Shown here one piece after another: positions 6,519-22,941 of a stretch of 23,778 nucleotides of DNA; the first letter of the stretch is position 1; the number at the start of each line of letters is the position of its first letter. The stretch is from the IMG/VR virus record IMGVR_UViG_3300027782_003369, positions 1 through 23,778 of that record. One strand, given 5' to 3'. A program made the position numbers and the translations under genes. The notes below the pieces were generated by a model. The model saw only the letters and a program-made list of their open reading frames with translations. It did not search any database and was not told the origin of the DNA. Source of the DNA: a virus.

Positions 6519-6657
6519 TGCGTTTTACTTTCTTTACTGTTTCAATCTGTGCTATCATCAATTCAACTTGTTCCCGAGCACGTTCTACTTTACTTTCAAT
6601 CAAAGCCACACGTTCTTCAGGATTTAAGAAAAATTTATTTTCTTTTTTGTTTTCCAT
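6499..6657 (-). CDS. Small helical protein, 52 aa
   Basis: ATG 6657 to TGA 6499, with AAGGAGAG as Shine-Dalgarno. Very basic at the N-terminus (MENKKENKFF), then a heptad-like helix (about residues 13-46) that could be a coiled coil. It is the first gene after the intrinsic terminator at 6671-6706 and overlaps the next gene by 20 bases. No family is recognised. Confidence 0.65.
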   Translation of the reverse strand: MENKKENKFFLNPEERVALIESKVERAREQVELMIAQIETVKKVKRNEQIDS

Positions 6658-6670
6658 TTTCTCTCTCCTT

Positions 6671-6706
6671 AAAATAAAAAACCCCGGAGTGTTTAGTTCC
6701 AGGGTT
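6671..6706 (-). terminator. Intrinsic terminator inside a gene leader
   Basis: On the minus strand AACCCTGG and CCGGGGTT arms (6699-6706 and 6680-6687) form an 8-bp stem, with one T-G pair, around an 11-base loop; a T-rich tract follows (6671-6681). It lies between a strong promoter and the ribosome binding site of the 52-aa gene, where a terminator must be bypassed for expression. Its upstream arm overlaps an alternative stem. Confidence 0.75.
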
Positions 6707-6744
6707 CTTAGATAAAATTTAAAATTTATTCTATTCAGAACCCC
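6701..6744 (-). promoter_or_regulatory. Candidate antiterminator stem
   Basis: On the minus strand GGGGTTCT (6737-6744) can pair with AGAACCCT (6701-6708), seven Watson-Crick pairs plus one G-U. The second arm shares six bases with the terminator stem, so the two folds exclude each other. The stop codon of the 35-aa leader ORF (6731-6733) is immediately past the first arm. Confidence 0.6.
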
Positions 6745-6838
6745 TACTCACATCTCCACATTCTAACATCCATAGATTGGCATAGCCGCCAATAATTGGA
6801 AGTGTTATGGAATCAAGATGTAATTTATTAGTCTTCAT
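6731..6838 (-). CDS. Possible 35-aa leader peptide
   Basis: ATG 6838 to TAG 6731, in the only transcribed leader between the 6848-6876 promoter and the terminator. There is no Shine-Dalgarno; the ATG lies nine bases after the -10 box, so the mRNA would start two or three bases before it. The peptide contains GGYANLWMLECGD and no obvious run of one regulatory amino acid. The stop lies at the edge of the antiterminator arm, which is the geometry of translational attenuation. It could also be a chance ORF in a structured RNA. Confidence 0.4.
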   Translation of the reverse strand: MKTNKLHLDSITLPIIGGYANLWMLECGDVSRGSE

Positions 6839-6847
6839 AGTAAGTAT

Positions 6848-6876
6848 TATATACGGTTATTTATGATCTGTCAACC
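6848..6876 (-). promoter_or_regulatory. Consensus sigma70 promoter of the attenuator-like leader
   Basis: TTGACA (6871-6876), a 17-bp spacer and TATAAT (6848-6853) on the minus strand, all consensus. The predicted RNA starts near 6841 and would be about 165 nt long if stopped at the terminator. Confidence 0.85.
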
Positions 6877-12894: not shown

Positions 12895-13012
12895 TTAAAT
12901 ATTTCCTTTTAAGATACGGAACAGATTTGCGTCCGTGAATAATATTTAGTGGTTTTTACTGATGGCCAGTAATTTTTGCACGGTTTCTTGGTGCTTTTAG
13001 AGTAAACTGAGC

Positions 13013-13040
13013 ATAAAAAGAAACCCGCCGAAGCGGGTTC
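13013..13040 (-). terminator. Intrinsic terminator of the tmRNA gene
   Basis: AACCCGC, TTCG loop and GCGGGTT on the minus strand, followed by a T-rich tract. It lies about 45 bases after the tag stop codon, where the tmRNA coding piece should end. Confidence 0.92.
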
Positions 13041-13082
13041 TACTATTTTCTGTTACGAGGTATAATTACCCTATCGCGGTGA

Positions 13083-13172
13083 TTAAACTGCGAAAGAATC
13101 GGCTTTCACTGTGCGAGCAGAGAACTTGACGTTCTTACCAGATACAGTTACTTCGCCTGTAGATGCGTTTGC
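13083..13172 (-). other. tmRNA tag-coding segment (longest candidate)
   Basis: The frame ends KADSFAV then TAA. Two resume points are plausible. GCA at 13172 gives a 29-residue tag starting ANAS. A codon after the AGTAACT motif (GTA at 13145) gives a 20-residue tag. AGTAACT is the context of the resume codon in cyanobacterial tmRNAs, and the segment NVKFSARTVKA resembles cyanobacterial tags, but a GTA resume codon would be abnormal. Confidence 0.55.
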
Positions 13173-13261
13173 ATTTACGAGTTTTGCTTGATTTACGGTC
13201 ATCGCCTACCGTGTTGCCTCTTTCGCTATCTCACCATGTCGAAACCGGTCGGGCCCATCAG

Positions 13262-13353
13262 AAGTATATTGTAACGCGAACAAGAGTGAGTCGTTCCAAG
13301 TCGCCAGATCAACAAACACATTTCTGCGTTGTTCTCGCACCTGCAATATACTT
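13262..13353 (-). repeat. 10-bp inverted repeat bracketing the tmRNA intervening segment
   Basis: AAGTATATTG at 13262-13271 and CAATATACTT at 13344-13353. The stem would extend the tRNA-like acceptor stem and bring the two processing sites together before the spacer is cut out, as in other permuted tmRNAs. Confidence 0.8.
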
Positions 13354-13422
13354 TTGGTGGACCCGGGGAGAATCGAACTCCCGTCCACGATGCCTTCACT
13401 ACGAAGGAATTACAACAATTCT

Positions 13423-13629
13423 TTACTGTTGCGGAACAATGTTTGATGCTTGCTTGCCCTTGGGGCCTTGCACCACATCAAACATAACAGTTTGATTCTC
13501 TTTGAGTGTCTTAAATCCACCAGTGTTGATTGCTGAGAAATGTGCAAACAAATCGTCGCCACCACCATCGGGTGTAATAAATCCAAAACCTTTTGCATCA
13601 TTGAACCATTTTACTTTACCAAACGCCAT
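13423..13629 (-). CDS. cspA: CspA-family cold-shock protein
   Basis: 68 residues, the full length of a single cold-shock domain. RNP1 is KGFGFITP (13-20) and RNP2 is LFAHFSAI (27-34); the start [12 protein letters not shown] is classical. It binds single-stranded RNA and DNA in the cytoplasm as an RNA chaperone. The ATG at 13629 follows AAAGGAAG. The mRNA probably begins near 13803, giving a long leader with a strong hairpin (13685-13706). The stop is a dozen bases before the tmRNA acceptor piece, so cspA and the permuted tmRNA are likely co-transcribed. Host origin is probable, but transfer cannot be shown from sequence alone. Confidence 0.93.
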
Positions 13630-21053: not shown

Positions 21054-21845
21054 TCAAGATTTTTTAAACACTGGAATAGGATTCATTTTGTGTAGACTAC
21101 GGCTACGAATAGCACGATATTTTAATAAGTTAGCTACCAATGAAGGCTCATCTGTTGTAATTTCGCCCTGGTCCATACGCATTGCAACCTCTAACTCAGC
21201 ATAACTAAGTCCGCCAAGCTGGTCTTGATCAGTGCGGCCATCATCCCATAAGCCATCTGTAGGTGCGGCATTGATAATATCGTTGAGTATGCCGAGCTCA
21301 CGGCCCATTTGCCACACTTCAGTTTTGTAACAGTCAGCAATAGGGCTAATGTCTACTCCTCCGTCACCATACTTGGTATAAAATCCCACACCAAAGTCTT
21401 CTACTTTGTTACCAGTACCAACCACAATACCATTTACTGATTGCGCAATTTGATACAAGGTAACCATACGTAGTCGACTACGACTGTTGGCCAGGCCCAA
21501 CAAGTTGGGATATGTAGCCAGGTGTTGTTCAAATTCATCAAAGATCGAAGTTAAATCAATAATTTCGTGACGTATATTATCAAAGTTTTGTGCTAACCAA
21601 AATCCTTGGCGCATACTGAGATCATGTAGGTCTGGGCGTTGATGAATAGGCATAGTGACTGCAAACACATTTAATCCAGTTCTAGCACACAACGCACTGA
21701 CCACAGCACTATCAATACCACCACTGATACCTACTACCAAAGATTTTATATTGGCTCTGTCAGCATAGTCTCGAATCCAAGTGGTGATACGATCTTGCAA
21801 TGAGGTTCCAGCTGATAGTCGATCTTCAGTTGTAAAAGTTGTCAT
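21054..21845 (-). CDS. nadE: NH3-dependent NAD+ synthetase
   Basis: 263 residues from ATG 21845, which overlaps the preceding stop (ATGA); ATG 21860 is possible but lacks that coupling. The PP-loop is SGGIDS (41-46). GTGNKVEDFGVGFYTKYGDG and DISPIADCYKTEVW are the family's product-binding and dimer motifs. No glutaminase domain is present, so it uses ammonia. It makes NAD from deamido-NAD. NAD synthesis genes in phages can support DNA ligation and counter host NAD depletion; that role here is inference. Confidence 0.92.
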   Translation of the reverse strand: MTTFTTEDRLSAGTSLQDRITTWIRDYADRANIKSLVVGISGGIDSAVVSALCARTGLNVFAVTMPIHQRPDLHDLSMRQGFWLAQNFDNIRHEIIDLTSIFDEFEQHLATYPNLLGLANSRSRLRMVTLYQIAQSVNGIVVGTGNKVEDFGVGFYTKYGDGGVDISPIADCYKTEVWQMGRELGILNDIINAAPTDGLWDDGRTDQDQLGGLSYAELEVAMRMDQGEITTDEPSLVANLLKYRAIRSRSLHKMNPIPVFKKS

Positions 21846-22078
21846 TGTTTTAAATTCCATATTAAATGTTCAATTCTTTCGTGATATCTAAATTCAAATA
21901 CAGCCTCACCGGGCCCATGATACATTGCTATACCTTCGTACGCATGGCATAACCATAGCCAACGTCCTGTTATAGCACTACGCTTGGGCCACCAAATAAA
22001 CTTTAGCCGCCATACTGCTTTGTGATAAAAATGATCATATGTATCCACACCGGGAGAATAGTAACCGGCACCCATCAT
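21842..22078 (-). CDS. Conserved small hypothetical protein in the nadE/queE operon
   Basis: 78 residues, overlapping QueE (ATGATG) and NadE (ATGA). Tyr/Trp/His-rich, with the pattern VWRLKFIWWPKRSAITGRWL and GPGEAVFEFRYH. I recall such small proteins in phages as unannotated but conserved. The many Trp and Tyr suggest an interaction surface. Function unknown. Confidence 0.75.
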   Translation of the reverse strand: MMGAGYYSPGVDTYDHFYHKAVWRLKFIWWPKRSAITGRWLWLCHAYEGIAMYHGPGEAVFEFRYHERIEHLIWNLKQ

Positions 22079-22941
22079 TTGCCCCAGCCATTACCCCACA
22101 AGTCCACATGTAATCTAGGACTGTAGTTAAATCCACGCTCACAACAGATGTTGGCAATGTTTAGTTTGTTGCTTTCGTATGGATCAACTACACCACCTTG
22201 CGGCATTAGGTAAACAACACCTTTAAATCCACCGGCACGGAACGCATCTACAGCCTTGACTGCCTCGTCCACATGATCTTCAGTTTCCACAACAAATTTG
22301 AGATAGGTATGACCAAACGACTGATATTCAGCTACTACATCGGGGCAAATAGCATCTTCCCATGACTCGCCTGATGCTGACAATTTAGCACTTACACTAA
22401 ATGTAATTTCTTTATTTTCACAACCGTAGGTCCAGAAATTGTCAATTAAAAATTGTTTAAAATCATCTGACAACGGTTGTGTGCCATTTGTTTCAAATGT
22501 GATATTTTTTAAGTCTGCCATGCGTGGATGACTCAATAACTCTCCATAGGCACGTTGCCAACCTAACAAGGGTTCGCCACCTGTAATAACCAAGTGAACA
22601 TCGTTGCCATTATTCTGCCGCCACACACGATTAGGAGTAAGTGCCAGCATGCGTTCAACCAATTCATCTGTGGTCAATGTAGGGCTCAAATGTTTAAATG
22701 CAGGATGCCAACTTGCGTAACTATCGCAACCTGTTTCCACCAATGGTAAGTCTGTAAACTTATCGTACATGTGAACAACTTCTGCTACATCGTCTGCACC
22801 TGTGCTCTTTTCACCAGGCTTGCAACCAAACCCTGCACAGGTAAAGTTACAACCATAAGTGCGTAAGAACACGCTAGGCACGCCTACAAAGCGACCTTCG
22901 CCTTGTAAGCTATAAAATATTTCTGACACTTTAATTTTCAT
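22075..22941 (-). CDS. queE: 7-carboxy-7-deazaguanine synthase-like radical SAM protein
   Basis: 288 residues. The N-terminal KVSEIFYSLQGEG is the QueE signature, followed by VFLRTYGCNFTC and TGGEPLL. QueE makes the 7-carboxy-7-deazaguanine of queuosine and 7-deazaguanine DNA modifications. The cysteines at 31, 35 and 40 (CNFTCAGFGC) are spaced C-x3-C-x4-C instead of C-x3-C-x2-C. Variant cluster loops are known in QueE. The ATG at 22941 has AAGGT upstream and overlaps the preceding gene. The rest of the pathway (QueC/D, Dpd-type) is not in the window. Confidence 0.87.
   Translation of the reverse strand: MKIKVSEIFYSLQGEGRFVGVPSVFLRTYGCNFTCAGFGCKPGEKSTGADDVAEVVHMYDKFTDLPLVETGCDSYASWHPAFKHLSPTLTTDELVERMLALTPNRVWRQNNGNDVHLVITGGEPLLGWQRAYGELLSHPRMADLKNITFETNGTQPLSDDFKQFLIDNFWTYGCENKEITFSVSAKLSASGESWEDAICPDVVAEYQSFGHTYLKFVVETEDHVDEAVKAVDAFRAGGFKGVVYLMPQGGVVDPYESNKLNIANICCERGFNYSPRLHVDLWGNGWGK

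Follow-up and report, generated by a model that had tools for sequence, protein, structure and literature searches.

Comparative evidence for a putative ribosome-mediated transcription attenuator of tRNA operons in uncultivated phages

The window analysed here is a 23,778-nucleotide stretch of viral DNA (IMG/VR virus record IMGVR_UViG_3300027782_003369), and all of the window features discussed below lie on its minus strand. A sigma-70-type promoter (6874-6846), consisting of TTGACA at 6874-6869, a 17-nt spacer and TATAAT at 6851-6846 and scoring 12/12, is followed by a leader ORF of 35 codons (6838-6731; MKTNKLHLDSITLPIIGGYANLWMLECGDVSRGSE*), which begins with an ATG 7 nt past the -10 box, ends with TAG, and includes at codon 23 (6772-6770) a Trp codon that is invariant among the relatives described below. 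The 5′ arm of a predicted antiterminator, GGGGTTCT (6744-6737), lies within the ORF and starts 11 nt ahead of the stop codon. Its 3′ arm, AGAACCCT (6708-6701), overlaps the 5′ arm of an intrinsic terminator, AACCCTGGA-ACTAAACAC-TCCGGGGTT plus a T tract (6706-6676), so that the two structures compete for one arm; pairing of the stop codon TAG (6733-6731) with CTA (6711-6709) would extend the antiterminator. The terminator stem joins 6706-6698 to 6688-6680 around a loop of 9 nt and runs into the T tract TTTTTT (6681-6676), and the hairpin was missed by a terminator scan whose loop limit was 8 nt. Immediately after the terminator comes the ribosome binding site of a two-gene unit, encoding a 52-aa protein (6657-6499, with its ATG at 6657) and a 101-aa protein (6518-6213) that has distant relatives in Vibrio and Erwinia phages. 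The promoter, 35-aa ORF, antiterminator, overlapping terminator and ribosome binding site had all been proposed in a first-pass annotation, and all are present. A promoter between the terminator and 6657, which that annotation had named as a competing explanation of expression, has no room in the 19 nt available.

Downstream of the two-gene unit, a second promoter (TTGACC-17-TATAAT, 11/12; 6181-6153) stands ahead of a calcineurin-like phosphoesterase gene (6123-5518; PHROG 547, Pfam PF12850), which separates the unit from an array of tRNA genes for Met, Glu, Trp, Gly, Cys, Asp and Phe (5454-4621); ARAGORN, from which the array calls come, reports further tRNAs for Ser (2761-2672) and Thr (2396-2321) beyond it. 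Upstream of the leader, a permuted, phage-encoded tmRNA occupies 12992-13468 (RF04321 and beta_tmRNA matches). A tmRNA is also found upstream in many relatives, making tmRNA, putative attenuator and tRNA array a recurrent order. The window also carries genes for a DctP-type solute-binding protein (PF03480; 6940-7929) and a Gcw_chp protein (PF09694; 12169-12894), both unusual cargo for a phage, and NAD synthetase and QueE-like genes near each other (21054-22941).

A search that started from the second gene (101 aa) turned up six loci in IMG/VR, with five distinct leaders, at which the leader is kept, and patterns built on the promoter and terminator led to about thirty additional IMG/VR contigs, the same layout being found at every terminator-pattern match and at most promoter-pattern matches. 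In total there are 34 modules, that of the window and 33 others from IMG/VR, with diverged leaders and a single module on each contig. In all 34, the promoter scores 10-12 of 12 and its spacer is exactly 17 nt, an ATG 6-11 nt past the -10 box opens an ORF of 26-48 codons, and the GAACT of the terminator follows the stop codon at a distance of 34-40 nt. A looser terminator pattern occurs in exactly one copy per contig across 40 related records, among them contigs 197, 320 and 344 kb long, and the terminator pattern has no match across 84,980 prokaryote genomes. The carriers of the module are uncultivated phages, often large. Among the 50,697 phage records of INPHARED, neither the window leader region nor a small-gene protein had a relative, and weak INPHARED blastn matches of two other leaders were dismissed as chance or tRNA matches. 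A covariance model applied beside tRNA-Trp in four known phages gave no credible match, and homology to the DctP-like protein upstream yielded no usable relatives from IMG/VR.

The leader frame is open in every module, and the alternative frames are open in 0 and 3 of 34. The ratio pN/pS is 0.38 in the leader frame and reaches 0.86 and 1.25 in the two alternatives. By these comparative criteria the leader ORF is under purifying selection and translated. Because the short distance from the -10 box to the ATG leaves no space for a Shine-Dalgarno sequence, the leader mRNA is probably leaderless, given the transcription start inferred from this layout; the first-pass annotation does not mention this feature. 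With regard to the promoter itself, most modules carry ATAAATA in the spacer (6857-6867 in the window, and homologous sites), compared with 1 of 116 other strong promoters at the same loci; that count led us to reject a general phage promoter class, and the motif hints at an operator or at a late-type promoter that overlaps. A further recurrent promoter class, with TTGACC, a spacer like AATAATTCCNNTTTGC and TATAAT, is present at several sites per phage (L082, L085, L087, L088 and others).

A selected ORF of this kind might simply be a small early gene that stands alone and has a terminator to itself, the genes downstream being fed by read-through or by other promoters without any switch, and in a single genome a leaderless gene followed by a terminator would look similar. 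We judge this very improbable. It does not predict the covariation of the antiterminator or the result of the arm-swap test given below, the terminator is found only here and once per contig, and the peptide is free to change apart from its Trp.

An attenuator calls for a second, competing structure, and an antiterminator that takes up the 5′ arm of the terminator is predicted in all 34 modules. The stop codon lies in the antiterminator helix, with all three bases in 31 modules and with one or two in the other three. Mean pairing energies of the arms are -16.8 kcal/mol for native combinations, -12.3 for swapped arms and -7.5 for shuffled arms, and none of 20000 permutations reaches the native value, a test that needs no alignment of pairs. 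In a model-fitted alignment of 34 sense matches, which leans towards structure, 8 of 12 pairs are changed on both sides, with 29 cells compared with 12.4 after shuffling (0/500), and two-sided changes far exceed those counted with the partners slid; many of the sequences are related, so these counts are not independent events. The covariation score of an unfitted MAFFT alignment was reached by 1 of 500 shuffles. The predicted antiterminator thus covaries, and the search for covariation in homologues that the first-pass annotation had proposed returned the same alternative pair, with compensatory changes, across the 34 modules. Folding of the window leader, the other check proposed there, beats 200 of 200 dinucleotide shuffles (z -4.4). 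The terminator hairpin is paired in 98.4% of cells (27 sequences) and its loop, ACTAAACAC, is conserved.

In 32 of the 34 modules the antiterminator equals or exceeds the terminator in predicted stability. When the leader is masked to 15 nt past the stop codon, the antiterminator is lost in every module, and when the mask instead ends 15 nt beyond the first base of the Trp codon, the antiterminator is kept wherever this was scored; L106 and L107, whose arm sits 26 nt before the stop, lie outside that score. Of 33 nascent leaders scored with no ribosome present, 31 are still predicted to form the antiterminator, and the leader folds contain no strong competing upstream hairpin of the trp 1:2 type. 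The full-length equilibrium fold without a ribosome still favours the terminator in most modules, which implies that the switch must be kinetic.

Beyond the terminator, 30 of the 34 modules have a gene of about 55 codons whose products form one loose family with the motif L-x3-K-x2-R[A]; the 52-aa member in the window matches no Pfam or PHROG family. A protein of this kind could bind the antiterminator, and it could be argued, from this gene and the conserved loop of the terminator, that the leader is a protein-bound antiterminator or a riboswitch, the latter echoing a riboswitch-like RNA offered in the first-pass annotation. The gene is absent from four modules, nothing resembling a conserved aptamer precedes the stop codon, and Rfam gives no match at the gathering score (the best known leader family, His_leader, scores 20.7 bits against a threshold of 49). 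With the peptide-coding constraint, and with the Trp codon as the only one conserved across the ORF, we set the riboswitch-like alternative aside and hold this whole class of explanation to be extremely doubtful.

The putative attenuator is linked to tRNA genes. Same-strand tRNA genes lie downstream in 31 of the 34 modules, and the remaining three contigs end within 1.3 kb. The array includes tRNA-Trp in 26 modules, often as its first gene. In L100, for example, tRNA-Trp begins 25 nt past the terminator, too close for a promoter of its own, and 18 modules have no promoter scoring at least 10/12 between the terminator and the first tRNA. What had been described as genes of unknown function is therefore better described as a unit in which the gene for the ~55-aa protein precedes a tRNA array, either immediately or with a few genes in between. 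Strong promoters are common within these arrays, and in the close relatives of the window the second promoter is kept at the same position. The attenuator would thus not be the sole control of the tRNAs in the window and these relatives; it would directly govern the 52-aa and 101-aa genes and only add to transcription of the tRNAs.

Two further RNA elements were observed between the module and the array. In L084, L089, L094, L098 and L103, the stretch from the ~55-aa gene to the array contains a 3′ half resembling tRNA-Tyr that is missing from the ARAGORN calls, and array counts are accordingly lower bounds. A different structured RNA, roughly 110-120 nt long and unrelated to the module, is located between the putative attenuator and the first tRNA in 22 of the 34 modules, after the ~55-aa gene where that gene exists (for example, L102:1735-1854 (+), L087:14893-15012 (-) and L092:1405-1524 (+)). 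It has compensatory changes at 14 of 19 consensus pairs, the one copy checked matched no Rfam family at E values up to 1, and it was not found in the window.

Among 22 diverged leader peptides, with a mean column identity of 25%, the initiating Met and one Trp are the only invariant residues. An in-frame TGG is found at codons 17-24 in all 34 modules; the other two frames have one in 8 and 14, and 45% of control gene starts have a TGG among their first 35 codons. The Trp codon lies 22-64 nt upstream of the antiterminator arm in 33 modules and 12 nt upstream in L100, and a ribosome stalled at this codon would leave the arm free. Two modules, L086 and L093, have the Trp codon and no tRNA-Trp within the downstream 2.5 and 13 kb, respectively.

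A single conserved Trp is also reminiscent of TnaC, in which W12 stands 12 residues before the stop, and in family A of our leaders the Trp is likewise 12 residues before the stop. By this analogy the leader would encode an arrest peptide, the Trp acting in the exit tunnel and the ribosome stalling in response to a small molecule or a host state, with a stall at or near the stop forcing termination. Such a peptide is distinctly improbable here, as the distance from Trp to stop varies from 8 to 25 residues and the residues flanking the Trp are not conserved, unlike known arrest motifs, and a stall at the stop codon would yield repression only.

Codons from Trp to stop, with Trp itself excluded, are enriched for codons readable by the module's own array (Stouffer Z 4.4 over 12 peptide clusters, with all cluster members used and simple wobble rules assumed). 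A module's own array fits its leader better than other arrays do, with values of 193/20000 for the post-Trp codons and 32/20000 for the whole ORF. In the window, the leader ends in W M L E C G D V S R G S E, and the tRNAs include Trp, Met, Glu, Cys, Gly, Asp and Ser (AGT). The bias is uneven: L100, whose leader is rich in codons of its array, weighs heavily (Z is about 3.2 without it, calculated by hand from cluster values), clusters C, F, H and J show little, and GG-rich codons within the antiterminator arm are partly forced by structure.

From sequence comparison come the module itself, its coding constraint, the covarying antiterminator, the invariant Trp, the linkage to tRNA genes and the codon bias; from these we infer that initiation is indeed leaderless, that ribosomes stall, and in which direction and to what signal the switch responds. 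On this basis the module probably acts on a phage tRNA operon as a ribosome-mediated transcription attenuator. Transcription would start on the leader AUG or no more than a few bases from it, and ribosomes would load on the leaderless mRNA. A ribosome that reaches the leader stop would cover the 5′ arm of the antiterminator, allowing the terminator to form and transcription to end. A ribosome stalled at the Trp codon above all, or at later codons for tRNAs of the array, would let the antiterminator form first and transcription read through; if no ribosome had loaded, the antiterminator would also form first and the polymerase would enter the ~55-aa gene and the tRNA genes. The attenuation geometry suggested in the first-pass annotation, with a finishing ribosome favouring termination and a stalled one favouring readthrough, thus gains support from the covarying alternative stems, the coding constraint and the conserved Trp. 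The switch would turn on the phage tRNAs when matching charged tRNAs run short, and candidate natural signals are cleavage of tRNAs by host defences, low Trp and a general failure of translation.

The same attenuator could respond to the last of these alone. It would then sense any loss of leader translation, whether through failed initiation, antibiotic-like inhibition or host shutoff, and the Trp codon would have no special role. The predicted folds of the ribosome-free leader, with an antiterminator in nearly all and no strong upstream competitor, imply that the default of an untranslated leader would be readthrough, and the dependence of leaderless initiation on the 70S state and on fMet-tRNA (PMC9031893) counts in the same direction. 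A sensor of translation failure in general does not account for an in-frame Trp kept in every module while the other residues turn over, nor for post-Trp codons that match the array, and we think it unlikely. The invariant Trp and the codon match are the reasons why the codon-specific version of the attenuator is ranked first. In its fullest form, which we put forward tentatively as one possibility, the codon-specific attenuator would make the tRNA operon self-sensing: a mini-gene composed of codons for the operon's own tRNAs would report their loss (for example, to host anticodon nucleases), replacement tRNAs would be switched on only then, and tRNA-Trp would serve as the master signal across many arrays.

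Why phages carry tRNA genes is an old question, and little is known about the regulation of their arrays. Phage tRNAs have been proposed to counter host depletion or cleavage of tRNAs (PMC10264068). The main text of that work, which concerns anticodon-loop changes and in which we found no operon attenuation, provides a reason for tRNAs made on demand. A leader that couples tRNA transcription to the decoding of codons would make such "supply on demand" directly testable. Neither Rfam nor a full-text literature search that took in few subscription papers yielded a previously reported attenuator acting on a phage tRNA operon, and as far as we found this would be the first leader-peptide attenuator described for one. 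As a device, the leader-peptide attenuator is well known; what appears to be new is its use on a phage tRNA operon, from a probably leaderless ORF whose stop codon falls within the antiterminator and whose control codons correspond to tRNAs of the operon itself.

Several known systems share part of this design. Leader-peptide attenuators of the trp, his and pheST type, which serve amino acid and synthetase operons, likewise combine a short leader that is translated and carries control codons with an antiterminator and an intrinsic terminator that exclude each other, and a stall is expected to result in readthrough. The phage module differs in being phage-borne, in controlling tRNA genes and a small phage protein instead of biosynthesis, in having a leader that is probably leaderless and usually contains one Trp codon rather than a run, and in placing the stop codon inside the antiterminator. 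In the enterobacterial trp leader, moreover, the 1:2 hairpin brings about termination when the leader is untranslated, whereas the phage modules have no obvious counterpart. T-box riboswitches also couple tRNA charging to transcription readthrough, as the phage module would, but they bind the tRNA directly; the phage module, which has no Rfam T-box match, would sense it by way of the ribosome. A further group, attenuators of antibiotic response genes that sense impaired translation, includes the leaders of PA5471.1/armZ-mexXY, msrD and hflXr, where lost or arrested leader translation is thought to raise readthrough into a gene that relieves the condition. Those leaders respond to ribosome-targeting drugs, whereas the output of the phage module is a set of tRNA genes and its leader is marked by an invariant Trp.
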